This document shows positions 2,316 through 37,258 of a stretch of DNA of 44,095 nucleotides, in pieces. The stretch lies in IMG/VR virus record IMGVR_UViG_3300033148_005649, positions 1-44,095 of that record; one strand, written 5' to 3'. This stretch comes from a virus. The notes under the pieces are model-generated. The model worked only from the letters and a program-made list of their open reading frames with translations. It did not search any database and was not told the DNA's origin. The translations under genes and the position numbers were made by a program. The first letter of the stretch is position 1; the number at the start of each line of letters is the position of its first letter.

Positions 2316-2331
2316 AGCGAACATTTATAAA
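2313..2331 (+). promoter_or_regulatory. archaeal viral promoter (TAAAGC element plus TATA box)
   Basis: The sequence TAAAGCGAACATTTATAAA is one of seven copies of the conserved motif in this genome. The TATA box is TTTATAAA at 2324-2331, so transcription should begin near 2354. It would drive the tail genes from 2455 onward with a leader of about 100 bases. Its TAA doubles as the stop codon of the connector gene. Confidence 0.75.
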
Positions 2332-3606: not shown

Positions 3607-4215
3607 ATGGCATTTCCAGACGCATGGGAGGAAACAGCTTTTGTAGAAATACAGGAGTTTGGTGGTAGTGCAATCCAATTTGGAGCTATCACAGATACAA
3701 TTGATATTAATGAGGGTGATGTTCCAGGAGAAGGACAACCAACTTTAGCAGGTGGTAGAATCTGGAAGCAAAGTCCTCAAGAAGATGGGGAAATAACTTT
3801 AGAGATATACCCAGTAGAATTAGACACTACAAGTGGTGTTGGTCTATTCCAACATTATGCAGGTGGAACATGGGATACTGAAGAACCATTAATAACGGAT
3901 ACTGATTGGCCTGCAAGCACAAGCAGAACAAGAGATCAATTTAGGATTGTAGTATTATGGACTAACGATGCTTCAGCAACAACTGCAAGTGGAGCAACAA
4001 GTGCTAGTACAGATAGTATAAGATTTGCAGCTATGGGTTGTAGAATGACTTCACATAAAGCTTCATTTACAGATGGAATCTTAAAGATAACAGCAACATT
4101 TAAATGGCCAGCATTTAATAAAGCAGGAACTGTTAAGATGAGTAGGTGGGACAGTGGAGACCAAACCGCAATTGAAGCATTAAGCACATATGATGATGCT
4201 GATTCCTGGAGTTAA
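3607..4215 (+). CDS. major tail tube protein, copy 1
   Basis: 202 residues, predicted all-beta. Key stretches are FVEIQEFGGSAIQFGAITDTIDINEG, GRIWKQSPQEDGEITLEIYPVEL and the strongly conserved SHKASFTDGILKITATFKWP, which recur in the next gene. Two adjacent homologous beta proteins followed by chaperones and tape measure is the normal context of a tail tube protein. A good GGAGG lies just upstream (3595-3599). The tube builds the channel through which DNA passes. Copy 1 is the compact version without added modules. Confidence 0.75.
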   Translation: MAFPDAWEETAFVEIQEFGGSAIQFGAITDTIDINEGDVPGEGQPTLAGGRIWKQSPQEDGEITLEIYPVELDTTSGVGLFQHYAGGTWDTEEPLITDTDWPASTSRTRDQFRIVVLWTNDASATTASGATSASTDSIRFAAMGCRMTSHKASFTDGILKITATFKWPAFNKAGTVKMSRWDSGDQTAIEALSTYDDADSWS

Positions 4216-4217
4216 AC

Positions 4218-5279
4218 ATGGCAGGGAAATTTCCAGAAGCGTGGCAAGAAACTTGTTTTGTCACAATTCAAGAAAAAGGACAATCAGCCCAGCAGTTTGC
4301 TGCGATTACAGAGACCATAGATATTAACGAAGGAGATTATCCTGGTGAGAGTGTATCTACTACTGCAGGTGGGAGGATATGGAAACAATCTTCTGCAGAA
4401 GATGGAGAGATTACTTTAGAAATCTATCCCATCAAACTTGATTACGCAGCAGGGGGGGTAATATCCTCTATTAATGGAGATGGTACAGATATAATTTTAT
4501 CAACAGCAACAGCACATGGATTGGCAATAGGAGACACAGTAAGGGTAAGTAATACAACTAATTATGGGACCACATCAACACCTGTTAATTATGTTGTGGA
4601 TTCTGTTACAGATTCTGATACAGTTGTTATGAAATCTTCAACTTCTGAAGCTGAAGAAACTGATGGAACATGGGTTGGATATAAAGGTAATACTGGATTA
4701 TTTCAACAATATGTTGGACATTTGTTACCAACTGCAATTAGTAGCATTAATGGTGATGCAGATAGTGTTGATATTACTTCAACTGCACATGGACTACAAG
4801 AGGGAGATGTGTTTGAAGTATCAGGCACCACAAACTATAATGGACCTTATGTGGTAACTACAAGAACAGATGCAAATAATATTGTATGTACAGATGAAGG
4901 ACATAATGAAGCTGAAGAAACAGCAGGGTTTTTGACTAAAGTATCTGATGGAAGTCAACCATTATCAACAGATATTACACAATTAGCAAGTACTGCAAAG
5001 TTAAGAGATAGATTTATTATAGCTATTTTATGGACACAGGATATTGCAGTAGATAGTGCTATGGATGCTACAAGAGATACAGATAAGACAGCAATAAGAT
5101 TTTATGCAAAAGAATGTAGAATTACAAGCCATAAAGCAAGTTTTACTGATGGGATTTTGAAGGTAACACTTACATTGAAATTTCCTTACATGAACAAAGC
5201 AGGAACAACTAAATCTAGTGCTTGGGAATCTACAGATGATACAGATACAAAGGTATTACCAGCATTAACATATACCTAA
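4218..5279 (+). CDS. tail tube protein paralogue with two inserted beta modules
   Basis: 353 residues. Residues 1-80 and about 242-353 align closely with copy 1 (shared TIDINEGD, GRIWKQS--EDGEITLEIYP, SHKASFTDGILK-T---K-P). Two modules, residues 81-157 and 173-241, start with ISSINGD, contain TAHGL--GD--VSN/GTTNY and end near EAEET; these are copies of one domain type known from phage tail decorations. They are inserted into two separate loops, since the short GLFQQYVG segment between them matches GLFQHYAG of copy 1. It may be a minor or outward-decorated tube subunit. Confidence 0.7.
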   Translation: MAGKFPEAWQETCFVTIQEKGQSAQQFAAITETIDINEGDYPGESVSTTAGGRIWKQSSAEDGEITLEIYPIKLDYAAGGVISSINGDGTDIILSTATAHGLAIGDTVRVSNTTNYGTTSTPVNYVVDSVTDSDTVVMKSSTSEAEETDGTWVGYKGNTGLFQQYVGHLLPTAISSINGDADSVDITSTAHGLQEGDVFEVSGTTNYNGPYVVTTRTDANNIVCTDEGHNEAEETAGFLTKVSDGSQPLSTDITQLASTAKLRDRFIIAILWTQDIAVDSAMDATRDTDKTAIRFYAKECRITSHKASFTDGILKVTLTLKFPYMNKAGTTKSSAWESTDDTDTKVLPALTYT

Positions 5280-13823: not shown

Positions 13824-13839
13824 AGCAAACCTTTATAAA
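13821..13839 (+). promoter_or_regulatory. archaeal viral promoter for the small membrane protein genes
   Basis: TAAAGCAAACCTTTATAAA, a copy of the conserved motif, with TATA box at 13832-13839. The ATG at 13863 is 31 bases from the first base of the TATA box, so the transcript should start at or next to the start codon. A Shine-Dalgarno-like AAAGGAG (13846-13852) would then lie outside the mRNA made from this promoter and serve only read-through transcripts. Confidence 0.75.
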
Positions 13840-20320: not shown

Positions 20321-20769
20321 CCTAACAACCCCTCTCTTACTTTATGTGTCATCTCAATCAATCCCTGTAAGTTCACTTCACCGATCTTGTGTCCAGCGAA
20401 AAGATTACACAATCCTTTAAAAACAGCCAAGTTTTCAATCCTTCGGCTTCTCTCGTCTTGTGTTTCTTGATAAGAACTCGGAGAGTTCTGGGTGGTTGGC
20501 ATGGGTTTTTGTTGTGTTATTACCTCTGTTTCCACACGCTCGGACTTCACAAGTGGTGTCATCTTTTCTACATAGGAAAAATTATTTTGTTCTCCAATCT
20601 CAACATCCACTTGAAATCCAATCTTAAACTCTTGCAACCATTCTTTTAATGGCATCCCATTTTCCCACCGATTTAGTGCTGTGGCGTCATCAAAGAATAT
20701 TGTAACATATTCTTTTCCATTTCTTGCTTTTTTTATTGGTGATATCCCGCTAATAGTTTTATTTACCAT
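20317..20769 (-). CDS. possible OB-fold / single-strand-binding-like protein
   Basis: 150 residues from ATG 20769, chosen because GGGAGG sits just upstream. Residues 1-70 are beta-rich (KTISGISPIKKARNGKEYVTIFFDD ... FQVDVEIGEQNNFSYVEKMTPL), like an OB fold; then a Pro/Gln/Ser-rich linker and a helical end (VFKGLCNLFAGHKIGEVNLQGLIEMTHKV). The plan resembles viral SSB or annealing accessory proteins, but the call is uncertain. The start overlaps the end of the HNH gene, whose last codons contain its ribosome-binding site. Confidence 0.5.
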   Translation of the reverse strand: MVNKTISGISPIKKARNGKEYVTIFFDDATALNRWENGMPLKEWLQEFKIGFQVDVEIGEQNNFSYVEKMTPLVKSERVETEVITQQKPMPTTQNSPSSYQETQDERSRRIENLAVFKGLCNLFAGHKIGEVNLQGLIEMTHKVREGLLG

Positions 20770-27697: not shown

Positions 27698-27771
27698 TGG
27701 GATTATCAGGATTTGAACCTGAATCCATTGACCCCAAATCAACGATGCTAACCAAGTTACACTATAATCCC
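27698..27771 (-). tRNA. tRNA-Pro (anticodon UGG)
   Basis: 74 bases on the minus strand folding into a full cloverleaf: acceptor GGGATTA/TAATCCC, D arm with GGTTAG, anticodon arm GTTGA-TTTGGGG-TCAAT with anticodon TGG, T arm TCAGG-TTCAAAT-CCTGA, discriminator A. No CCA is encoded. The D stem is weak (two G-U pairs). CCA is a favoured proline codon in the viral proteins. The secreted protease's upstream ATG begins three bases after the tRNA 3' end, so tRNA processing could release a nearly leaderless mRNA. Confidence 0.9.
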
Positions 27772-27871: not shown

Positions 27872-28099
27872 CTAACTACCACATTGCTTGGAAGTAGAAG
27901 GAGTGCCCCCCTCAAAAAACCTATCTGGTATCCTTTGATATCTATTCTTTTTCTGGTTGAGCTCCTCTTTTATGCACTCATCCACATAATCAGCTATTAG
28001 AATGAATAGCTGTCCTGCTTTATGAGGAGTTAGTTTTAGTGTATTATGGATATATTCCCATAATACCTTGTATGTTGTGTCTGAATCTTTCCTATTCAT
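27872..28099 (-). CDS. small helical protein, unknown
   Basis: 75 residues. The helices TTYKVLWEYIHNTL and HKAGQLFILIADYVDECIKEEL form the core; the tail is Ser/Gly-rich. ATG 28099 follows AGGTGGAGTAG, the recurrent junction of this cluster. Confidence 0.6.
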   Translation of the reverse strand: MNRKDSDTTYKVLWEYIHNTLKLTPHKAGQLFILIADYVDECIKEELNQKKNRYQRIPDRFFEGGTPSTSKQCGS

Positions 28100-28222
28100 C
28101 TACTCCACCTCCTTTTCTTTCAAACATTCTTTACAAATCACTATTTTAGCACCATTTCTAAGATTAAACACTCTTTCTGAGTAACTTACTTCTTCTCCGC
28201 ATACATCACAATTAAATGGCAT
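28100..28222 (-). CDS. 40-residue zinc-knuckle protein
   Basis: CDVC (5-8) and CKEC (30-33) make one four-cysteine site. The C-terminal KEKEVE is encoded by the ribosome-binding site of the following gene. The ATG overlaps the upstream gene region as TGAATG. Confidence 0.6.
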   Translation of the reverse strand: MPFNCDVCGEEVSYSERVFNLRNGAKIVICKECLKEKEVE

Positions 28223-28396
28223 TCAAATCACCTCCCTTGCATACTCTTGCTTGATAACATCAACAACATTAATCTTCTTTATAGAAGAAGCAGGGGTCTC
28301 TGACCCCTTACAATTTGGACATTCAAAGTCATTTCTATCTTCAACCCAGAAGAAACAACCACAATCAACACATTCGTATTTAACTTTGTCTTTCAT
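28223..28396 (-). CDS. 57-residue zinc-ribbon protein
   Basis: CVDCGC (9-14) and CPNC (26-29) form a rubredoxin-like knuckle pair, followed by a helical tail (INVVDVIKQEYAREVI) that carries the next ribosome-binding site. Probably nucleic-acid or protein binding. Confidence 0.6.
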   Translation of the reverse strand: MKDKVKYECVDCGCFFWVEDRNDFECPNCKGSETPASSIKKINVVDVIKQEYAREVI

Positions 28397-28543
28397 CTAC
28401 TCCACCTCCTTTAAATGTTTCTTCAACTCCCTCAAACAATCATAACATATTGGAAAATCATAGGGCGCTTTTTCTTTATTCCAATTTGGGTGTCCATATA
28501 CCATTTCTTCTAAATCAACCCCACATAATATACATTTAGCCAT
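28397..28543 (-). CDS. 48-residue zinc-knuckle protein
   Basis: CILC (4-7) and CYDC (33-36) with His/Asn between (GHPNWNKEK). Ends KHLKEVE, read from the junction AAGGAGGTGGAGTAG. Third consecutive gene of this design, suggesting duplication and divergence. Confidence 0.6.
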   Translation of the reverse strand: MAKCILCGVDLEEMVYGHPNWNKEKAPYDFPICYDCLRELKKHLKEVE

Positions 28544-28549
28544 TTCCAT

Positions 28550-28723
28550 TTACTCCACCACCTTAAATATCACTCCAAAAACACCTTCTAACCATTCTTT
28601 AAAACTCTCATTATCAAAAGTTCCACCATTAAAACTCTCATACAATTCAACTAATTGTTCCTCCTCCATCAAACCAATACATTTCTTAATAATGTTTCCT
28701 TCTGTGCTTTCAATCAATTCCAT
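28550..28723 (-). CDS. 57-residue acidic protein, unknown
   Basis: Helix-rich (KKCIGLMEEEQLVELYESFN, FKEWLEGVFGVIFKVVE). ATG 28723 follows the standard AGGTGGAGTAG junction. A DNA-mimic-like negative charge is seen but not strong enough for a call. Confidence 0.55.
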   Translation of the reverse strand: MELIESTEGNIIKKCIGLMEEEQLVELYESFNGGTFDNESFKEWLEGVFGVIFKVVE

Positions 28724-28921
28724 CTACTCCACCTCCTTATGTTTCAAATATTCTTCTCCAAATAAAATAGCTTTCTCCAAATCTTCTTTACTCTCTCCAA
28801 ATACCTTTACCAATTTCTCATATTTTCCCAAACCATAATAAACACCAATTCTCAAATCATCTTTTTCTTCATTTATTTCTTGTATCCTAATTTCCTCATT
28901 TTTTCCTATATAAATTACCAT
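28724..28921 (-). CDS. 65-residue acidic protein, unknown
   Basis: Mixed beta (MVIYIGKNEEIRIQEINEE, LRIGVYYGLG) and a C-terminal helix (SKEDLEKAILFGEEYLKHKEVE). Its end again forms the ribosome-binding junction of the next gene. Function unknown. Confidence 0.6.
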   Translation of the reverse strand: MVIYIGKNEEIRIQEINEEKDDLRIGVYYGLGKYEKLVKVFGESKEDLEKAILFGEEYLKHKEVE

Positions 28922-29068
28922 TTATTCAACCTCCTCATCTTTAATAATCTCGCCACCTGTAAAACCTTGTTTTATTTGTTCTGCTATGTGTTCCCTGTCA
29001 ATATCGGTTAATTCGTCATAAGTGTTACCCTTTAACTCTAAATCCCACCAACCTCTATTTTTAGCCAT
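28922..29068 (-). CDS. 48-residue protein, unknown
   Basis: MAKNRGWWDLELKGNTYDEL opens with a beta-hairpin-like W-rich segment; LTDIDREHIAEQIKQGFTGGEI is a helix and turn common in small phage proteins. Ends DEEVE in the junction sequence. Confidence 0.55.
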   Translation of the reverse strand: MAKNRGWWDLELKGNTYDELTDIDREHIAEQIKQGFTGGEIIKDEEVE

Positions 29069-29215
29069 TTACTTTACCTCCTTTAATAGTTTAATAGCTT
29101 CATTTAAACACCATTCTTTTTCTTCTGCTGAATATTGGGAGATGTTAGATTCGTCAATAATGTAAAAATCTCTAATATCTTCCAAAATCTTAATTAAGTC
29201 TTTGCCTTTAGCCAT
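29069..29215 (-). CDS. 48-residue helical protein, unknown
   Basis: Two helices (KDLIKILEDIRDFYII, AEEKEWCLNEAIKLLKEVK). Starts MAK like its neighbours and ends in the AAGGAGG that serves the next gene. Confidence 0.55.
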   Translation of the reverse strand: MAKGKDLIKILEDIRDFYIIDESNISQYSAEEKEWCLNEAIKLLKEVK

Positions 29216-29217
29216 TC

Positions 29218-29451
29218 TTAATCACCGCCTAAATTATCCCACACTAAATCGTGTAGAAAACCATTAACATTCTGATTTAAAACTTCTGTGTCATTAATTC
29301 CCTCTAAAATATCAATCTGTTCGGTTGTTAAATCTTCAAACTTCTTTAAAGGGTTTGTCCTTCCAAAGAGCATTTTAGCTTCTTGGCTTGGCTCTTTCTC
29401 TTTAAACCATTTCCTTAAAAGGTTTTTCTGTTTAGCTGTTAAATCTCTCAT
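29218..29451 (-). CDS. 77-residue helical phage protein, unknown
   Basis: Starts MRDLTAKQKNLLRKWFKEKE, a helix seen in small phage proteins, followed by FEDLTTEQIDILEGIND and a helix FLHDLVWDNL. Possibly two small helical hairpins. No function known. Confidence 0.6.
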   Translation of the reverse strand: MRDLTAKQKNLLRKWFKEKEPSQEAKMLFGRTNPLKKFEDLTTEQIDILEGINDTEVLNQNVNGFLHDLVWDNLGGD

Positions 29452-29466
29452 CTTTAATCACATCCC

Positions 29467-30039
29467 TTAACTTATCTCTTGTAGTTTTTCTATTTCTTTG
29501 TTGTTGTATAACATTTTAATGTTATCCCACTCTTTGCATACTGCTATGTAAATGTGTTCTGCTTTTCTGCTATCCTCATCATATCCAAAAGTACCACAAA
29601 AATCCTTTAATGTCCCCACTTCGTATTTTTGTAATGAAGCCAAAACATCATAAGCAGATGGTTGTTTAAATTGAATATCCAACCCACTTAAACTAAAATG
29701 TTCCTTTTCCATATATAACCTTATTTTAGTTCTTGCCTTTTGTTTAAGTTTTGGTGTGGTTGCTGTTGTATATGCTTGTCTTAATTTAATGGGTATATTA
29801 AAACCTTTATGTCTTGTCCTCTCTTTGTTTGATTTGTGGATTAAAATAAGCCCACTATCATTTAAAGATTGACCGAAATCAAAAGTATATTCCCTATCCC
29901 CTCTTTTAAGGGTTATGAGGTATATATCTCTTTCTTCTGTTTCGCCTTCAAAATGTGTAGCGTGTTTGAGGAAAACTGCCTTAAATTCTGTTCCTGTGTC
30001 TTTTAAAAATTTGTTTGCTTGTTCTTCGTATTTATTCAT
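29467..30039 (-). CDS. conserved phage protein of unknown function
   Basis: 190 residues. KFLKDTGTEFKAVFLKHATHFEGETEERDIYLITLKRGDREYTFDFGQSL and the later PSAYDVLASLQKYEVGTLKDFCGTFGYDEDSRKAEHIYIAVCKEWDNIK ... EIEKLQEI are characteristic of a family found in many bacterial phage genomes. The N-terminal half is beta-rich, the C-terminal half helical. No biochemical role is established. It is the largest gene in this part of the cluster. Confidence 0.75.
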   Translation of the reverse strand: MNKYEEQANKFLKDTGTEFKAVFLKHATHFEGETEERDIYLITLKRGDREYTFDFGQSLNDSGLILIHKSNKERTRHKGFNIPIKLRQAYTTATTPKLKQKARTKIRLYMEKEHFSLSGLDIQFKQPSAYDVLASLQKYEVGTLKDFCGTFGYDEDSRKAEHIYIAVCKEWDNIKMLYNNKEIEKLQEIS

Positions 30040-30041
30040 TT

Positions 30042-30158
30042 TTAATTTACCTCCTTTAAAGCACCAAGTCTGATGAAGTCTTTAATTTCATCTATTGGTA
30101 TCATTTTTGTTTCTGTTATAACCTTAACTTCACCTTTACATACCATTTTTTGTTTCAT
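30042..30158 (-). CDS. 38-residue protein, unknown
   Basis: MKQKMVCKGEVKVITETKMI then a helix (PIDEIKDFIRLGALKEVN). It overlaps the next upstream gene by 23 bases. Good AAGGTGGAG before the ATG; the last codons hold the AAGGAGG of the following gene. Confidence 0.45.
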   Translation of the reverse strand: MKQKMVCKGEVKVITETKMIPIDEIKDFIRLGALKEVN

Positions 30159-30339
30159 TTACTCCACCTTCCTTTAATTTTAAATCTTTGAGATTAGCTT
30201 TAATAAACCCTAAAAGGGATTTTAAATAAATCTTCTTCTGTTCCAAATCTGAAACATTTAAAAATTCAATTATTACATTTAAAGTGTTTTGAATTTCCTT
30301 TAAAGTTCTTCCCATAATCTTTTTAGTTTGTTCTTTCAT
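30136..30339 (-). CDS. 67-residue coiled-coil protein, unknown
   Basis: One long amphipathic helix pair (TLKEIQNTLNVIIEFLNVSDLEQKKIYLKSLLGFIKANLKDLKL). AAGGAAGGTGG precedes the ATG. Probably dimeric. Confidence 0.6.
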   Translation of the reverse strand: MKEQTKKIMGRTLKEIQNTLNVIIEFLNVSDLEQKKIYLKSLLGFIKANLKDLKLKEGGVNETKNGM

Positions 30340-30359
30340 TTTTATCCACCTTCCTTGTC

Positions 30360-30376
30360 AGAACTCTCCGAGTTCT
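30360..30376 (-). other. 7-bp palindrome AGAACTC/GAGTTCT in a gene gap
   Basis: AGAACTC-TCC-GAGTTCT lies directly behind the stop of the 60-residue gene. The exact reverse complement occurs at about 20474-20490 inside another gene, and close variants at about 23399 and 25811. It may be a terminator, an RNA processing site or a protein-binding site. Confidence 0.45.
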
Positions 30377-30559
30377 TTAAAGTTCATATTTGATTATATA
30401 GTTTATTTCATTTATTAAATATTCTAGATTGTTCTTGTCGTTTCTATTATGGGGTTTTAAGGTGTGATTTGCTATAATATCTGCGAATGCTCTTATTACT
30501 GCTCTTAAATCGTCCCCATATTGTTCTATATCTGCTTGTTTTATGATTATATTCTCCAT
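30377..30559 (-). CDS. 60-residue helical protein, unknown
   Basis: Helices ADIEQYGDDLRAVIRAFADIIANH and NLEYLINEINYIIKYEL. GGGGGTGG upstream of the ATG is an unusual, weaker ribosome-binding site. It ends at a palindrome. Function unknown. Confidence 0.6.
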   Translation of the reverse strand: MENIIIKQADIEQYGDDLRAVIRAFADIIANHTLKPHNRNDKNNLEYLINEINYIIKYEL

Positions 30560-30575
30560 TTAAACCACCCCCTTT

Positions 30576-30686
30576 TTATTTTTTAATAACTCTTAATAAC
30601 CTTTCTATGTAATCCTGTGCTTCTGAAATTTTAATAGCTTCTTTCCAATCTTTACCTAACCATAAACTACCTTTATTTATTTTCAT
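30576..30686 (-). CDS. 36-residue protein containing a portal-derived segment
   Basis: MKINKGSLWLGKDWKEAIK followed by ISEAQDYIERLL and VIKK. The segment at 30595-30629 is identical over 35 bases, and in the same reading frame, to part of the portal gene (36834-36868, opposite strand). So this ORF shares a 12-residue peptide with the portal. It may be a captured fragment; whether it is functional is unknown. Confidence 0.5.
   Translation of the reverse strand: MKINKGSLWLGKDWKEAIKISEAQDYIERLLRVIKK
30595..30629 (-). repeat. 35-bp exact inverted copy of a portal gene segment
   Basis: The reverse complement of 30595-30629 equals bases 36834-36868 without mismatch; the flanks differ at once on both sides. 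It codes for the same residues in both genes. Confidence 0.9.
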
Positions 30687-30893
30687 TTATATCAACTCCT
30701 TACCTATAAAAAAATCCTTTTCATCACCATTTAAGGTTTTTCCATCTTTCCAAGTCAAACCAATACAATAATCATTATCCTTGCAAATAATCAAATACTG
30801 ACCAATTTTGTCTTTTATCACTTCATATAACTCGTTTGACCAATAAACCTTTTTATTCTCTTTTATTGCTTGTTTGATTTCTTTTAAGTTCAT
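30687..30893 (-). CDS. 68-residue phage protein, unknown
   Basis: MNLKEIKQAIKENKKVYWSNELYEVIKDKIGQYLIICKDNDYCIGLTWKDG: a helix then a small beta barrel with a W at the turn. This short strand-rich design recurs in phage early genes (often annotated hypothetical). Function unknown. Confidence 0.6.
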   Translation of the reverse strand: MNLKEIKQAIKENKKVYWSNELYEVIKDKIGQYLIICKDNDYCIGLTWKDGKTLNGDEKDFFIGKELI

Positions 30894-30898
30894 TTATA

Positions 30899-31096
30899 TC
30901 AACTCCCTTGAACATACCCATATTCCCTTATTTTGTCTTTAATTGTTGTGTTGGGTTTTGGTAGTGCTGTATTTTTCATTAATCTTATAATGATGTCGTT
31001 GTAGGTTTCCTTTTTGTAAAGTTTATACCTTTTAAGGTTTGTTCTTGTTTCTTTTGAAACTATGATTAAGGTTTCTGTTTCTTTGTTGATTCCCAT
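30899..31096 (-). CDS. possible ribbon-helix-helix-like regulator
   Basis: 65 residues. A strand TLIIVSKETRTNLKRYKLYKKETYNDIIIRLMK (residues 9-42) has the strand-helix-turn-helix spacing of RHH or antitoxin-type DNA-binding proteins. The tail is Pro/Thr-rich then basic. Second gene of the early unit, a usual place for a regulator. Tentative. Confidence 0.5.
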   Translation of the reverse strand: MGINKETETLIIVSKETRTNLKRYKLYKKETYNDIIIRLMKNTALPKPNTTIKDKIREYGYVQGS

Positions 31097-31100
31097 ATTA

Positions 31101-31403
31101 TTAAGTTCCTAAAAATGTAATATCATAAGTGCCTTCTGTTATGATGTCGTTTATGCCTTCCAACATTCTTGTTTTCTGTTTTGGTGAGGGATATCTCAAA
31201 AACTTTAAATTAAGTAGTTCTTGGATTAAGTAATATCTTTTTAGGTCTGTTATTATGTGGCTTAATATTTCTTTCTTTTTGATGTTTGGGTATATTTCTT
31301 TAAAATATGTAAATTTTGTTGATTCTGCTTGTAAGGTTATTTTTTTAGGTATTATTTTTGTATTATCTTCTTTTTTATTTTCGTTTTGGCTTATATCTTC
31401 CAT
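31101..31403 (-). CDS. first gene of the minus-strand early unit, unknown
   Basis: 100 residues. A charged start is followed by KKITLQAESTKFTYFKEIYPNIKKKEILSHIITDLKRYYLIQELL, mostly helical. ATG 31403 has CAGGAG upstream and lies about 36 bases behind the start predicted from the promoter at 31463-31481. A DNA-binding role is possible. Confidence 0.6.
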   Translation of the reverse strand: MEDISQNENKKEDNTKIIPKKITLQAESTKFTYFKEIYPNIKKKEILSHIITDLKRYYLIQELLNLKFLRYPSPKQKTRMLEGINDIITEGTYDITFLGT

Positions 31404-31462
31404 TTTTTAATTTTACTCCTGTTTTTAGTGTATAAATATTGTTTTATTTATCTTTTTTGAAG

Positions 31463-31481
31463 TTTATAAATGTTTGCTATT
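31463..31481 (-). promoter_or_regulatory. archaeal viral promoter of the minus-strand early train
   Basis: The minus strand reads AATAGCAAACATTTATAAA, matching the seven-copy motif over its last 16 bases. TATA box 31470-31463; start expected near 31439, before the ATG at 31403. It heads the longest transcription unit of the genome. Confidence 0.65.
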
Positions 31482-31525
31482 CTTTGTTTTTATTATTTAA
31501 AGGTTAAAATGGTGTTAAATTGATA

Positions 31526-31551
31526 TTTGTTTTAAACAAGTTTAAAACAAA
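31526..31551. promoter_or_regulatory. 26-bp perfect palindrome, operator or origin element
   Basis: TTTGTTTTAAAC-AA-GTTTAAAACAAA: two 12-base arms with a 2-base centre, in non-coding DNA behind the early promoter. Suited to a dimeric protein. Confidence 0.6.
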
Positions 31552-31643
31552 GTGAGGATTTTTGATATTCTGAGTCTAATGTGAAAAGGTAATATATTTA
31601 TTTTACTATACGATATGAAAACAGGTGTTTTCTTGCCTATTGA

Positions 31644-31709
31644 CTAATCTGGTACTAATCTGGAACTAATCTAGTACTAATCTAGTACTAATCTAGTATT
31701 AATCTAATA
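31644..31709. repeat. six 11-bp tandem iterons (CTAATCTAGTA)
   Basis: Units at 31644, 31655, 31666, 31677, 31688 and 31699: CTAATCTGGTA, CTAATCTGGAA, three of CTAATCTAGTA, and TTAATCTAATA. The 11-bp period is about one helical turn, placing all sites on one face. AT-rich DNA and a GAAAACA-GG-TGTTTTC hairpin (31617-31632) lie beside it. It is a candidate replication origin or regulator array. Confidence 0.75.
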
Positions 31710-31781
31710 CCTTTAAGTATATTCTTTAACACCTTCTTTTCTTATGGAAGTCTTCATATTTCTTGGGTTTTATCTCTTGGT

Positions 31782-31985
31782 CTAATTGAAATTCATAGAG
31801 TTTCTATTTGGTAGATTATTTATTAAAAGTGCTGTTGCTCTTGCTTCTTTTAAACTCTCTTTCCAAGTATTTTTATATATTTTAGCTGTTATGTTTAGGT
31901 TATTATAACCCCAAATATTAGTTTTTTTAATCTTTTCAACTTTTTTTAAATACTCTTTTAAAGCTTTTTTATCATTCCAACCCAT
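31782..31985 (-). CDS. 67-residue basic helical protein, unknown
   Basis: Lysine-rich helices (KKALKEYLKKVEKIKKTN, TWKESLKEARATALLINNL). It is flanked on both sides by non-coding repeats, and its promoter overlaps the 13-bp inverted repeat at 32008-32043, so it is probably under its own control. A GGAG precedes ATG 31985. Confidence 0.55.
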   Translation of the reverse strand: MGWNDKKALKEYLKKVEKIKKTNIWGYNNLNITAKIYKNTWKESLKEARATALLINNLPNRNSMNFN

Positions 31986-32007
31986 TTTCTCAACTCCTTA
32001 CGCTTGA

Positions 32008-32043
32008 TTTTATACACACTTATACACATTAGTGTGTATAAAA
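32008..32043 (-). promoter_or_regulatory. 13-bp inverted repeat overlapping a TATA box (operator)
   Basis: TTTTATACACACT (32008-32020) and AGTGTGTATAAAA (32031-32043) are perfect arms around TATACACATT. Each arm contains TATAAAA; the near one would start transcription close to ATG 31985. A dimeric repressor bound here would block the 67-residue gene. Confidence 0.6.
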
Positions 32044-32072
32044 TATTAATTATAACCAAAAAAGAAAAGTGG

Positions 32073-32231
32073 TTATATACCACCTTCGTTTTTTAAGCTC
32101 TCTTTTGTTGTATTTGAGGAGAATAAAGTAATTTCTCTTTCTCTCACCATCTGCTCAAATTCGTCCCACTCTAAATAGTGGGCTTTATTTGGTTTTTCTT
32201 TCCTCACAACAACCTTAATACTTTTTTTCAT
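32073..32231 (-). CDS. 52-residue protein, unknown
   Basis: MKKSIKVVVRKEKPNKAHYL then a helix EWDEFEQMVREREITLFSS. The start (strand then helix) may be a small DNA-binding fold. CGAGGTGAG precedes ATG 32231. Possible upstream promoter TTTATATA at 32394-32387. Confidence 0.55.
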   Translation of the reverse strand: MKKSIKVVVRKEKPNKAHYLEWDEFEQMVREREITLFSSNTTKESLKNEGGI

Positions 32232-32290
32232 ATCTCTCACCTCGCTATATGATTATAACTTTTTGATTATGCTCACAGCTATGACCTTCC

Positions 32291-32327
32291 CATAACAGAA
32301 TATATATATTCTATTATATATGTTATG
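32291..32327. promoter_or_regulatory. nested palindrome
   Basis: AGAATATATATATTCT (32297-32312) is a perfect 16-bp palindrome. CATAACA (32291-32297) and TGTTATG (32321-32327) form an outer inverted pair. Upstream of the 52-residue gene, so a likely operator. Confidence 0.5.
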
Positions 32328-32522
32328 ATAGTCTTGCTGTTGTTAGTGTCATCACATCATAACCTATTATAGAGATAGTATAAGGGTATATAAAGGTATG
32401 TGTGTTATAGAATATAGATATATAACACCATAATACTTATATACTTACATTACTTACTTATATTGAAGTTTTCTACTCTATGGGATATCTTCACAATCTC
32501 TTTCACAATATTGAAGAATAAT

Positions 32523-32582
32523 CTTTTGTTTCACTTTTTGTTTCACAACTCATTTCACTTTTTGTTTCACTTTTTGTTTCAC
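32523..32582. repeat. five 12-bp direct repeats (TTTTTGTTTCAC)
   Basis: Units begin near 32523, 32535, 32547 (degenerate, AACTCATTTCAC), 32559 and 32571. On the minus strand the unit is GTGAAACAAAAA. A second, independent iteron-like array 0.9 kb from the 11-bp one. Confidence 0.7.
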
Positions 32583-32790
32583 AATCTGAGAATTGTATAG
32601 TATATATGTTGTGTTGTATGTGTTGTGATATATATGTTGTGGGGGTGGGGTTATATTTTTAAAGGTGAATTATATAGAACACTAACCCAAATTTCTCCAC
32701 CAAAATTTTCAAAAAAACGATAGAGAGGTTAGTTAGGTTTATTTCCTTTAAATATTAAAATAAAGATAACTATGTTTACTATTAGAGAAG

Positions 32791-33093
32791 TTAATCAGGT
32801 TTTTGTTCAGTTTGTTTAATAATGTTATGTAGCCCACCAGAAGTAATCATATACCCATTATCACATTGATTATATTTTATTGCCCTATATATTTGTTTTT
32901 TAGCTTTACAAACATTGCCAGCGCTCCAATTGCTTTTGATTTCATAATATATTCTCCCTTTAGGTCCACGAACCAAAACATCCATTTCACCATGTGGGTA
33001 TATAACTTTCTTTTGAGCATCTAATCCTGCATGCACACATATATTATATACTAAATTTACTAGTCTATCATGTCTGTTTATTTGTTTACTCAT
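32791..33093 (-). CDS. PD-(D/E)XK nuclease-like protein coupled to terminase
   Basis: 100 residues. GLDAQKKVIYPHGEMDVLVRGPKGRIYYEIKSNWS gives the D-x13-E-x-K core (GEMDVLV, YYEIKS), and a helix with KAKKQIYRAIKYNQC then YMITSGGL follows, as in Hjc/VRR-type nucleases. The ATG overlaps the terminase TGA, so the two are made together; it may trim or resolve DNA at packaging. This is the second or third such nuclease in the genome. Confidence 0.7.
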   Translation of the reverse strand: MSKQINRHDRLVNLVYNICVHAGLDAQKKVIYPHGEMDVLVRGPKGRIYYEIKSNWSAGNVCKAKKQIYRAIKYNQCDNGYMITSGGLHNIIKQTEQKPD

Positions 33094-34721
33094 TTAAACT
33101 CCTCAATCCTTCTACTATCACAATATGGACACCTATCCAAACCATCCCCTTCAAATATGCATGCACATGAATTACATTCCATTTTCTTAACATATGAATA
33201 CTTAGATTGTTTCTTTTTAGCCTCTCCAACAACCAAAGCACCTGCAGGTGGTCCACTCAATCCAACAGCAGCAAAGTTTGCTAACATAAAGGCATCAAGA
33301 AGGTGATCCCTAATTTTGCCTGTAACTGGTGCATAGAACTTGGTCCTGGTAGTTTGCATGTTGTATTCTTGTTGATAAGCCCCTAATTCCTGCATTAGTT
33401 GTTTGTGGTAAGGCATTTTGATTCTACGCTTTTCGAATAGGATTTTGGAAGTAGTCACCAGATCAGCTTTCCTCGTTCCCCCAGAAAAACTATACCCTTC
33501 GACAGGCAAGCCCATATCCGACATGACTGATATCTGGCCACCCCCAATTCCTTTATCTGCAAGAATCATTCTAACATTATAGCGTTTACATAAATTTGAT
33601 ATATCTTTGATAATTACCATATAATCTGTTCTAAGCGGATATTCTTTTAAATCCAAGACCTGAACATTAGCCTGGTCAGGTACTCTTGGGAATGTAGCTT
33701 TAACCACAGCATAGGCACTATTTGCCTGGGTCTCACCCCAATCAACACCTATGTATATTTGTTCTTTAGTAATACCACCAAAGTTTAGGTTTTTATCTAC
33801 TGCTTCCTGGATTTCTTGTTCAGAGAACACACAATTCTCGTTTGCGAGGAATTCTCCTAAATACTCTCTACGGTAAGCCGCATCTAACATTTCATCTTTT
33901 CTTTCCTGTAAATCTTTAGGTTTCATTAAAGGACTTATATTTGATGGGAAATGATATCTTTTCCAGTTAGCTCCCCCTTTCCAGATTTCATAAAAAAATC
34001 CAGCAGGGATTTTTGGTGGAGTTGATACAAGCATGATCTTCCCATCTGTAGCCATGGTTGTAGGTCTCAGGACCTCATTGTAAATATAGTCTCCTTCATC
34101 AATGCTATCCCCAATAAATGCAGCTTCATCAAGATAGAGATGATTTACACTTTCTCCTCTTGCACTATCTCCAGCAACAACAGAAATTATTTTACTGATA
34201 GTTTGTTTCTTTCTCATTCTGTTGGCTACAGGAACTTCTACAGTTCTTTTGATCCATAACTCAAATTTGTTGTCAACTCCAGTTTTGGCTAATTCTTCTC
34301 CAAAAGGGGTGTTCATTCTAAATTCTCTTATTCTATCTATTATTCTCTTTGCCATGGGTTGTGTCTTGGAAACCACACATACAGTAGTATTTTGATTGAA
34401 GAGAGCTGTATGAAATGCTTTAATACTTAGAACATCTGTGATGCCTATCTGTCTTCCCTTAACTACTATTATGTTTTTGGATTGGTCATTTAGGATCATA
34501 TCCTGGTAATCAAAGGGTTTGTACCTATTATTTTTTTTATCTCTTAGATGGACATAAGCAAAGAGTGTTGGGTCCGCACAATAACCTAAAACTGTTTTTC
34601 GGATGGCATCTGCTTCCCGACCTCCGACCTTAGCAGCTTTAGCCATAATGTTATCTATGTGCTTAATTTTTTTTAAATATTGTTTTTTATAATCTTGGGG
34701 GACTTCTGCAGTAATTTCCAT
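33090..34721 (-). CDS. terL: terminase large subunit with C-terminal zinc ribbon
   Basis: 543 residues. ATPase: Walker A variant VVKGRQIGIT (86-95; no lysine in the usual place, as in the RQIG group), Walker B LYLDEA (195-200). RNase-H-like nuclease: YIGVDWG (D327), MILADKG (D389) and DHLLDAF (D472, D476). Unusually, the last 30 residues carry CNSC ... CPYC (516-534), a zinc ribbon. It cuts and pumps DNA into the head. It is read divergently from the other head genes from a shared two-way promoter, with a leader of about four bases. Confidence 0.92.
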   Translation of the reverse strand: MEITAEVPQDYKKQYLKKIKHIDNIMAKAAKVGGREADAIRKTVLGYCADPTLFAYVHLRDKKNNRYKPFDYQDMILNDQSKNIIVVKGRQIGITDVLSIKAFHTALFNQNTTVCVVSKTQPMAKRIIDRIREFRMNTPFGEELAKTGVDNKFELWIKRTVEVPVANRMRKKQTISKIISVVAGDSARGESVNHLYLDEAAFIGDSIDEGDYIYNEVLRPTTMATDGKIMLVSTPPKIPAGFFYEIWKGGANWKRYHFPSNISPLMKPKDLQERKDEMLDAAYRREYLGEFLANENCVFSEQEIQEAVDKNLNFGGITKEQIYIGVDWGETQANSAYAVVKATFPRVPDQANVQVLDLKEYPLRTDYMVIIKDISNLCKRYNVRMILADKGIGGGQISVMSDMGLPVEGYSFSGGTRKADLVTTSKILFEKRRIKMPYHKQLMQELGAYQQEYNMQTTRTKFYAPVTGKIRDHLLDAFMLANFAAVGLSGPPAGALVVGEAKKKQSKYSYVKKMECNSCACIFEGDGLDRCPYCDSRRIEEFK

Positions 34722-34747
34722 GGTTCTACAAGCTATATATTTAGTAG

Positions 34748-34783
34748 TTTATAAAGGTTTGCTTTAAAGCAAACATTTATAAA
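34748..34783. promoter_or_regulatory. two-way promoter between terminase and the head genes
   Basis: Two copies of the motif face apart and share GCTTTAAAGC: TATA boxes at 34748-34755 (minus) and 34776-34783 (plus). The 36 bases form a palindrome with a single mismatched pair. The plus TATA is 30 bases from ATG 34806, the minus one 34 bases from ATG 34721, so both transcripts should be leaderless or nearly so. Confidence 0.8.
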
Positions 34784-34805
34784 GAAGGAGTGGTAACTAA
34801 TAGAT

Positions 34806-35378
34806 ATGGAAAAAAAGAAAGACCCTAAATTAAATCCATATTATATCTTGAACAAGAATGTTGATCTTAAAGAAATTAGGGATAAGGTGTATGAAAAACA
34901 TAATAATAAGTTGAGTAGGTTTAAAGAAAAACAAAATTTACATAGTTCTGGAGGCCCACTCATGGGTTCTTCTTCACAAATGATAATTCAAAACTATGGT
35001 TGTGAGAAATGTACTCTTAAAAACTATTGTGAGTATTACCCCCATAAGAATAAGATATGTGCTGTAAGGGCCAAGATGTATGCTGAGTATCTTAAAGCTA
35101 TGAAAGGTGATTTGATACCTATTATGAAGGATGTATTTATGGGTATGAACATGGAAAGATCTTTTGAAGAGGCCAGATGGAAGAGTAAGGGTGAGCCACC
35201 AACAAAAGAGTGGTTAAAACTAAATGACCAGATAACCAAGCTTGGTGAAGCAATCCATAAATGTGAACAAGGGATTAAGGTTAAACATGAAGTTAGTTAC
35301 TTTGATGAACTATGTAATGAAGTCTATACAAAGATGAAACAACCAGGTCCAATAGAAGTTGTGATCACAGAAACTTAA
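34806..35378 (+). CDS. Cys-rich head protein, possible terminase small subunit
   Basis: 190 residues. A zinc-binding-like cluster CEKCTLKNYCEYYPHKNKICAVR (residues 66-88) sits between a charged N-terminal part and helices (EEARWKSKGEPPTKEWLKLNDQITKLGEAIHK). Its place beside, and divergent from, the large terminase and before the portal suggests a small terminase; archaeal proviral small terminases can carry such a Cys cluster. The call is inference; no helix-turn-helix is obvious. Confidence 0.45.
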   Translation: MEKKKDPKLNPYYILNKNVDLKEIRDKVYEKHNNKLSRFKEKQNLHSSGGPLMGSSSQMIIQNYGCEKCTLKNYCEYYPHKNKICAVRAKMYAEYLKAMKGDLIPIMKDVFMGMNMERSFEEARWKSKGEPPTKEWLKLNDQITKLGEAIHKCEQGIKVKHEVSYFDELCNEVYTKMKQPGPIEVVITET

Positions 35379-35394
35379 AGCGAACATTTATATA
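35376..35394 (+). promoter_or_regulatory. archaeal viral promoter of the head operon
   Basis: TAAAGCGAACATTTATATA, with TATA box 35387-35394 exactly 30 bases before ATG 35417; a leaderless start is predicted. The TAA is the stop codon of the upstream gene. Confidence 0.75.
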
Positions 35395-35416
35395 CTACTT
35401 TTGTATTTAATATTGT

Positions 35417-35764
35417 ATGGTGAATTTAAAATTCTGGAAAACCAACAAATTCTTTGATAAAAAGGAAAAAGAATTAAAAAAGATTAAAAAAGTAAAGAAA
35501 AACATAAATAATCTTATTTTAAAAAAATTAGGGATTCAATATGTTTTTAAGTTTTTTATAGATTTCTGGAATATTCTAAAGAAACCAATTAAGATTGTAT
35601 TAAATGTGGTATTTGATGGGCTTGTGTTATATATAGCTTTAGAGTGGTTGAAGTCTCCAGTTTGGTATCTGAAGGTATTGAGCTTGGGCACTATGGCTTT
35701 TTTGATTGTCTATGTTTATGTTAATTATATTATCAATTGGAAATTGTTAAGGAGGAATAATTAA
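35417..35764 (+). CDS. two-helix membrane protein before the portal gene
   Basis: 115 residues. A very basic N-terminal half (KKEKELKKIKKVKKNINN) precedes two membrane helices (IVLNVVFDGLVLYIALEWL, VLSLGTMAFLIVYVYVNYII). It is the first gene of the head operon with no ribosome-binding site, consistent with a leaderless mRNA. A membrane protein here may guide head assembly at the membrane or alter the cell envelope. No family recognised. Confidence 0.65.
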   Translation: MVNLKFWKTNKFFDKKEKELKKIKKVKKNINNLILKKLGIQYVFKFFIDFWNILKKPIKIVLNVVFDGLVLYIALEWLKSPVWYLKVLSLGTMAFLIVYVYVNYIINWKLLRRNN

Positions 35765-35765
35765 A

Positions 35766-37238
35766 ATGTTATTAGATTATAAAGAAAAATATTTAAGTGA
35801 TGTGGGGATTGAAACTAAATCCAAACCACCTGCACTTAATGAAAATTATATGGGGAGTACAGCATCTGGCCTAACTACCAGACCTTATGATTATAAGAAG
35901 ATTATGCAATATGTCAAGAAAAGTCCAGAAGCTCTTGGTGTAATAAAAACTATTGTTACAGATATTATTTCAGATGGATGGGTATTTAATGGTAAGAAAA
36001 AATATGTTACTAAAGCAGAAGAATTTGCAGAAGTTAATGGGATGAAAGATGAATTAAAGGCTGCACTTATTGATTGGTTGATTGAAGGGAATCTTGCTCT
36101 TTGGTTGGGTATATCAGATATTAAAGCAAAAGAGGCTCTTGGTAGGATCCAAGAGATAGAATATAAAGCTGAAGAGTATATTGGTGATGAAGCTTGGACT
36201 TGGAATAAAAAATTTAAGCATGTTGCTTGGACCACTATGAATATAGTTTTAAATAAAGAAGGTACAGAAATAGACCATTATGAGCAAAATGTTACCCATG
36301 GCTCATCTAATGTTGTTGATTCTACTGGCAGCGAAATTCCAGGCAAAAGTCAGACTACAGGATTAAATAAAAGGATATGGCAACCAGATGAAATTATTCA
36401 TGGGAAATATCTTCAGATAGATGGTAAGGCTTATGGGTATAGTCCAATGATCTCTCTAATGCCAGAAATCTCCACATTACAGCAAATTAAGGATTATGCA
36501 GGAAATTTCTTTGGGAATAGTGGTGTTCCTGATTGGATGTTCATATTACCCACAGAGACCATCAATTCCCAAAATGTTGCAAAATTTCGACAAACCATCA
36601 GACAATGGCAGGATAGTTCAGCTAAACATCGAAATCTAGTTCTTGCAGGTGAAGTCAAACCAGAGAGATTAAATCAGTTTGATAAAGATATGGAGTTTAA
36701 GGTTTTGGCTATTTATTATGTTGCAACAATAGGCTTCGCATTTAACTTACCCATGGGTAAGATGCAATCCATATTAGGTATGGAGCAAAAGGGTAAGGAA
36801 TCAGAATTGTCTGGAGAAGCATATTATAGAAGTATTTCAGAAGCACAGGATTACATAGAAAGGTTATTGAATGTTCAATTGTTTAAGAAATACTTTAAAG
36901 TTGAATTTCATTTCAATAAATCTTATTTGCAGGATGAAATCAGAGAAGCACAAAATAAGATGTTTATTACAGATTATCTTACAAAACTTATGGGGGTTGG
37001 AAAGTTTTACAAAAAGAAACCAAGTGATCAATATATTAATAAAATTTTACAGATGAAAGATGAGGATTGGTCAGAGATGACCAAAGAAGAAATGGAACTA
37101 ATGAACCCTAATACAGAGAGACAAGGACAACAAAGTAATGCTCAACTAACTGGAAATAACCCAAGGGAATCTCAAACAAAAAAAGATGAAAAACTTGGCG
37201 AGATGGAAAGAAAAAAGATCAAACCACAGGGTTCATAG
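35766..37238 (+). CDS. portal protein
   Basis: 490 residues. DYKKIMQYVKKSPEALGVIKTIVTDIISDGWVFNG, a long helix region, LNKRIWQPDEIIHGKYLQIDGKAYGYSPMISLMPEISTLQQIKDYAGNFFGNSGVPDWMFILP and the stem/clip order are those of HK97-type portals (DUF935/phage-portal-like). It forms the ring through which DNA enters. The end is Gln/Asn-rich and charged. The 35-base segment 36834-36868 recurs inverted at 30595-30629. GGAGGAA precedes the ATG. Confidence 0.85.
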   Translation: MLLDYKEKYLSDVGIETKSKPPALNENYMGSTASGLTTRPYDYKKIMQYVKKSPEALGVIKTIVTDIISDGWVFNGKKKYVTKAEEFAEVNGMKDELKAALIDWLIEGNLALWLGISDIKAKEALGRIQEIEYKAEEYIGDEAWTWNKKFKHVAWTTMNIVLNKEGTEIDHYEQNVTHGSSNVVDSTGSEIPGKSQTTGLNKRIWQPDEIIHGKYLQIDGKAYGYSPMISLMPEISTLQQIKDYAGNFFGNSGVPDWMFILPTETINSQNVAKFRQTIRQWQDSSAKHRNLVLAGEVKPERLNQFDKDMEFKVLAIYYVATIGFAFNLPMGKMQSILGMEQKGKESELSGEAYYRSISEAQDYIERLLNVQLFKKYFKVEFHFNKSYLQDEIREAQNKMFITDYLTKLMGVGKFYKKKPSDQYINKILQMKDEDWSEMTKEEMELMNPNTERQGQQSNAQLTGNNPRESQTKKDEKLGEMERKKIKPQGS

Positions 37239-37239
37239 T

Positions 37240-37258
37240 TAAAGCAAACATTTATAAA
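37240..37258 (+). promoter_or_regulatory. archaeal viral promoter of the capsid gene
   Basis: TAAAGCAAACATTTATAAA with TATA box 37251-37258. The start is expected near 37281, giving a leader of about 20 bases that includes GCGAGGT. A dedicated promoter fits the high demand for capsid protein. Confidence 0.75.

Follow-up and report, generated by a model that had tools for sequence, protein, structure and literature searches.

The virus record analysed here, an IMG/VR record of 44,095 bp without end repeats (the window), carries on its minus strand a short open reading frame that contains a piece of the virus's own portal gene, which raises the questions of how a structural-gene segment came to lie inside this small gene and whether it serves any purpose there.

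An Exact Inverted Copy of a Portal Gene Segment

Direct matching of 30595-30629 (-) against 36834-36868 (+) gave 35 of 35 identical bp, both copies being ATTTCAGAAGCACAGGATTACATAGAAAGGTTATT (30595-30629 read as reverse complement), with a common reading frame and the encoded peptide ISEAQDYIERLL. This confirmed what a sequence-only reading of this DNA had claimed, namely an exact, inverted, same-frame copy of a portal segment that cannot be due to chance. The match is the longest exact repeat of any type in the window, where the second-longest dispersed inverted match is a promoter element of 20 bp. From composition, about 3e-11 inverted matches of at least 35 bp were expected, and the longest one in 40 dinucleotide shuffles of the window was 19 bp; the match is therefore real and well beyond chance. 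No third copy of the 35-mer with three or fewer mismatches was found in the window, nor was any further capture of this kind seen there, including degraded ones among the self matches of the small-gene region. The coordinates of all features are collected in Table 1.

Table 1. Features of the donor and recipient loci, in window coordinates.
Feature	Position	Strand	Remarks
35-bp copy in portal frame (ISEAQDYIERLL)	30595..30629	-	exact match; beyond shuffles
36-aa ORF with copy	30576..30686	-	RBS AAGGAG 8 nt before ATG; predicted helix 5-35
Flank on 5' (coding-strand) side, AAGAAGCTATTAAA	30630..30643	-	last 12 bases recur once
Flank on 3' side, AAGAGTTATTAAA	30582..30594	-	imperfect direct repeat of other flank
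BRE/TATA-type promoter element GCAAACATTTATAAA	31463..31477	-	upstream of small-gene operon (31403 down to 27872)
Divergent BRE/TATA promoters, TerL (-) / portal operon (+)	34748..34783	.	shared element
Portal protein gene	35766..37238	+	PF04860; phrog_2662/phrog_12; 44-48% identical homologue
Source segment, portal codons 357-368	36834..36868	+	relative has IAEAQDYWENLL here

For comparison, dispersed inverted matches reached at most 16-20 bp in a relative of this virus (described below) and in four tailed phages or archaeal viruses, L011, L015, L016, and LNA4 (the last of 147.6 kb). Two comparison records departed from this: a phage that has long repeat families and L012, a whole-genome-amplified single-cell record with a 128-bp terminal inverted repeat that resembles a chimera. 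The latter is a reminder that the copy at 30.6 kb might be an assembly or library artefact, a chimera within what is, after all, a metagenomic virus contig. We consider this unlikely: a chimera should fuse two separate stretches, whereas here 35 bp sit within an otherwise intact, RBS-led ORF, and the operon continues normally to either side.

A Relative Points to the Portal Gene as the Source

Single-sequence scans of IMG/VR with the portal, large terminase (TerL), and primase proteins found no close relative. The exact 35-mer had no match in IMG/VR or in plasmids, and a near DNA search in phages gave no match either. One relative, IMGVR_UViG_3300006927_000013 (46,201 bp), was found via alignment of two paralogous window genes (3607-4215 and 4218-5279), and an alignment search with the portal returned the same record only. 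It has a 123-bp terminal direct repeat, which implies completeness. The paralogous genes are themselves arranged in tandem on the plus strand and are 59% identical, the second carrying an additional domain of about 150 aa in its interior; a tandem pair is found in the relative as well. Elsewhere in the relative's genome, an exact 80-bp head-to-tail tandem duplication was noted (G001:C1:19914-20073, L007/L008), which may be recent or an assembly effect.

The window gene was assigned as portal by PF04860 (51.5 bits against a cut-off of 39.1) and phrog_2662 (E 1.8e-13), and the relative's portal is 44-48% identical to it over its whole length. Where the window portal reads EAYYRSISEAQDYIERLLNVQ, that of the relative reads ESYWRNIAEAQDYWENLLNSQ, so that the copied segment has a counterpart, IAEAQDYWENLL, at the same place. 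The small ORF has no counterpart in the relative, whose genome also lacks any copy of its own portal and whose dispersed inverted repeats do not exceed 17 bp. This comparison, which rests on one distant relative whose small-gene region is unrelated, now shows that the segment is native to the portal and that copying ran from the portal to the small ORF. Fragment capture, one of the options that the sequence-only reading had listed, is thereby supported and given a direction. A special conserved DNA site at the source was considered and rejected, as DNA identity was 0.69 for the segment and 0.69 for the surrounding block.

The same comparison argues further against an artefact. The window portal is colinear with its homologue, the alignment running unbroken through the segment, and TerL and portal are divergent in both viruses; a misassembled inversion between the copies is thus not indicated. 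A genuine inversion would be another matter: the inverted pair could let 30630-36833 flip, swapping the ends of the portal and the small ORF, and, as the copies are inverted and share a frame, each of the resulting fusions would stay in frame. That the copies serve as an invertible segment is nevertheless extremely improbable, since a flip would truncate the portal after residue 368 (followed by RVIKK and a stop) and displace its promoter and TerL, the 35-mer is without dyad symmetry, no invertase was found among the subset of ORFs scanned, and the arrangement is the same in the relative, which lacks the repeat.

Flanks and Junctions of the Copy

Outside the 35 bp, the two loci diverge at once, as had been claimed: anchored gapped extension was no better than random. 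An older, longer copy with decayed flanks was rejected on the same grounds. With no mismatches inside the copy and no similarity outside it, the event appears to have been short and, judging from zero differences in 35 bp, recent.

The claim that flanking repeats are absent fared less evenly. It held for CRISPR repeats, but an imperfect direct repeat of 14/13 bp abuts both ends of the insert, in the order AAGAAGCTATTAAA, insert, AAGAGTTATTAAA. In a post hoc test, equally high direct-repeat scores occurred at 2 of 3372 positions in the operon and 6 of 4000 in the window. The sequence GAAGCTATTAAA, just before the insert, recurs once in the window, closing the neighbouring gene 29069-29215; there it is followed by CTATTAAA with no insert (full run-on CTATTAAAGGAGG). 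Because this sequence and its continuation exist there without an insert, the direct repeat probably predates the insertion for the most part, and because the sequence also ends the neighbouring gene, the tail of the recipient gene looks native. At the return-side junction there is a 6-bp microhomology (TATTAA), a length that was reached at 365 of 3432 operon positions and is thus common by chance; the entry-side junction shows no clear microhomology.

These features bear on whether the copy is a CRISPR-like piece, either a 35-bp spacer or a protospacer inserted by an integrase (Cas1-Cas2 acting off-target, or a casposase-like enzyme leaving a target-site duplication). The usual size range of CRISPR spacers includes 35 bp, the virus is of archaeal type, and the direct repeat at both ends recalls the 15-bp target duplications that casposase makes (PMC9939771). 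Against this, no CRISPR repeat, leader, or repeat family was found at the copy, whereas in known virus mini-arrays repeat and leader are present and the arrays are intergenic (PMC6858448). The direct repeat is not a perfect one, and the pair at its core (C/TTATTAAA twice) also occurs in the neighbouring gene, where there is no insert. Casposase substrates require terminal inverted repeats, and the insert, which begins with ATTTC and ends with TTATT (AATAA as reverse complement), does not have them. Such an origin is therefore very improbable, and the sequence-only reading, which had noted the likeness to a CRISPR spacer in size, was right to doubt it, the copy also lying inside an ORF. A TTC triplet on the minus strand beside the portal segment was considered as a type I PAM and set aside, being too frequent by chance to count.

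The Recipient Gene and Its Operon

The protein of the 36-aa ORF is MKINKGSLWLGKDWKEAIKISEAQDYIERLLRVIKK, and its start directly abuts the stop of the upstream gene. The insert occupies the 3' part of the ORF and lengthened it; without the 35 bp, the recipient frame would read MKINKGSLWLGKDWKEAIKKSY and then a stop. No homologues of the ORF were found in the relative or in IMG/VR, phage, and PHROG/Pfam searches, and neither its unique part, WLGKDWKEA, nor the degenerate peptide EAQDYIERL had matches in IMG/VR.

The ORF belongs to a small-gene operon running from 31403 to 27872. There is no promoter next to the copy, the nearest BRE/TATA element being the one at 31463 that heads the operon. Several other features were observed. 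From 27872 to 30339 (-) there is a run of very short genes with near-identical ribosome sites, which also encode the C-terminal KEVE and stop of the preceding gene. An identical 19-bp palindrome-like sequence, CAGAACTCTCCGAGTTCTT, that never occurred in shuffles lies at 20472-20490 (-) and 30359-30377 (+), the latter just before the ribosome site of gene 30136-30339, and is possibly an RNA hairpin or protein site. Between the small-gene operon and the terminase, an AT-rich stretch holds intergenic tandem repeats at 31643-31710 and 32524-32584 (CTAATCTAGTA and TTTGTTTCACTTT), which mark a candidate replication origin or regulatory region. A tRNA-Pro (TGG) gene lies at 27698-27771 (-).

In the window as a whole, genes were identified for the portal (PF04860), the large terminase (PF03237), an SU10-type capsid gene, and a DUF5906 primase. 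With two or fewer mismatches allowed, the element GCAAACNTTTATAAA was counted 8 times (mean 1.5 and largest 5 in shuffles), and copies of it head the small-gene operon, the terminase, the portal operon, and the capsid gene. BRE/TATA-like sites of this element were noted at 31463-31477(-), 34748-34762(-), 34769-34783(+), 13825-13839(+), 37244-37258(+), 35380-35394(+), and 2317-2331(+). The divergent pair between terminase and portal operon is joined by a palindrome, GTTTGCTTTAAAGCAAAC; these are archaeal-type promoters, perhaps with an operator. TATA-like boxes in the window peak 20-30 nt before start codons, unlike those of a bacterial phage of similar G+C. Archaeal BRE/TATA promoters that have short leaders or none are arranged in this way. 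Because the promoter arrangement is of archaeal type, the host is probably an archaeon. The virus is probably a tailed one. The recipient had been described as an early ORF, a label that we find unsupported because the small-gene operon and the structural genes (TerL, portal operon, capsid gene) have the same class of BRE/TATA promoter.

Does the Copied Peptide Act on the Portal?

The shared sense and frame, together with the intact RBS and ORF, invite the view that the 36-aa protein is a selected mimic that displays the helix ISEAQDYIERLL, binds portal subunits, and thereby poisons the portals of competitors or tunes assembly. AlphaFold predicted a single, mostly confident helix over residues 5-35 of the peptide, and its C-terminal 18 residues are strongly amphipathic (moment 0.69, reached by 0.4% of shuffles). 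In the portal, the segment falls within a helix predicted with low confidence at residues 350-377; this structure was predicted from two sequences with a mean pLDDT of 37, which is too poor to judge whether the segment lies at a subunit interface. A PDB sequence search with the portal found no relative. A portal-interfering helical peptide is thus physically plausible on the predicted structures. The moment of the portal helix itself is 0.62, however, so the amphipathicity of the peptide is inherited from it. Moreover, the small ORF has no homologue in the searches above, identity extends to the DNA rather than to the protein alone, which argues for recent copying rather than selection, and a mimic would act on the virus's own portal. 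A frame match would also be given by chance in 1 of 6 insertions. We therefore regard a selected portal mimic as doubtful, and the more specific proposal that the captured slice (residues 357-368) works as a microprotein interfering in trans with portal assembly of co-infecting kin as quite unlikely. The earlier suggestion of a decoy or interfering peptide is accordingly compatible with two predicted helices, and beyond structure and frame nothing speaks for it.

Antisense RNA against the portal transcript, also suggested, was rejected on strand logic: the mRNA of the small ORF has the same sense as portal mRNA over the 35 nt, so the two cannot pair there.

A Templated Insertion as the Probable Origin

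We favour, as the probable explanation, a single, recent, and non-recurrent templated insertion, in which some 35 bp from the portal gene of the virus itself were copied into a short translated gene. What was observed is exact identity, the direction of copying, absence from the sole relative, non-homologous flanks, and the conserved divergence of TerL and portal; recency, the repair mechanism, and the lack of function are what we infer from this. A growing or broken DNA end in the small gene may have copied about 35 bases from the portal gene, in inverted orientation, and then been rejoined; alternatively, a fragment of about 35 bp may have been captured during repair or replication and then rejoined. 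The insert would have lengthened the recipient ORF near its 3' end, with its agreement in sense and frame arising by chance, and it appears to be without function. Three points weigh against this account: the coincidence of sense and frame, at odds of 1 in 6, the want of clear microhomology at the entry side, and a comparison limited to one distant relative. Template switching over short distances between inverted repeats has been well described (PMC8604942). Because a distance of 6.2 kb is atypical for such switching, the end may equally well have captured a fragment or jumped onto a different replicating copy.

If the insertion is neutral, it offers a clean snapshot of a new short coding sequence arising in a virus, in which the donor, the direction, the inversion of the copy, and a recipient gene still open can all be seen. 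Under selection, it would represent the one-step origin of a portal-interfering microprotein, a self-derived structural decoy from a single mutation step. The most likely case is an ordinary ectopic duplication of recent date, a few dozen bases long, in a virus that has been poorly sampled, and the copy is not grounds for claiming a new system.

Comparison With Known Systems

Several known systems share parts of this arrangement. Like the mini-CRISPR arrays of SPV1 and SPV2, the locus presents a short sequence identical to a viral protospacer in an archaeal-type virus; unlike those intergenic arrays, it has neither repeats nor leader, lies in frame inside an ORF, and matches its own genome, whereas an SPV carrier has lost or mutated its own matching loci and so avoids targeting itself (PMC6858448). 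Integration by casposase or Cas1 resembles it in the direct repeat of about 14 bp around a short insert and in the archaeal setting, and differs in that the repeat here is imperfect and probably pre-existing and that the ends (ATTTC... and AATAA...) form no terminal inverted repeats. The template and variable repeats (TR/VR) of diversity-generating retroelements also place a short repeat at two loci, one in a structural gene; here there are zero adenine-directed differences, the repeats are inverted, and no reverse transcriptase was found among the subset of ORFs scanned. Templated insertions and template-switch mutations likewise yield short inverted copies that are exact, end abruptly, and lie between unrelated flanks. 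In the described template-switch cases the arms of a nearby quasi-palindrome are used (PMC8604942), while here the template is 6.2 kb away and the entry side is without clear microhomology.
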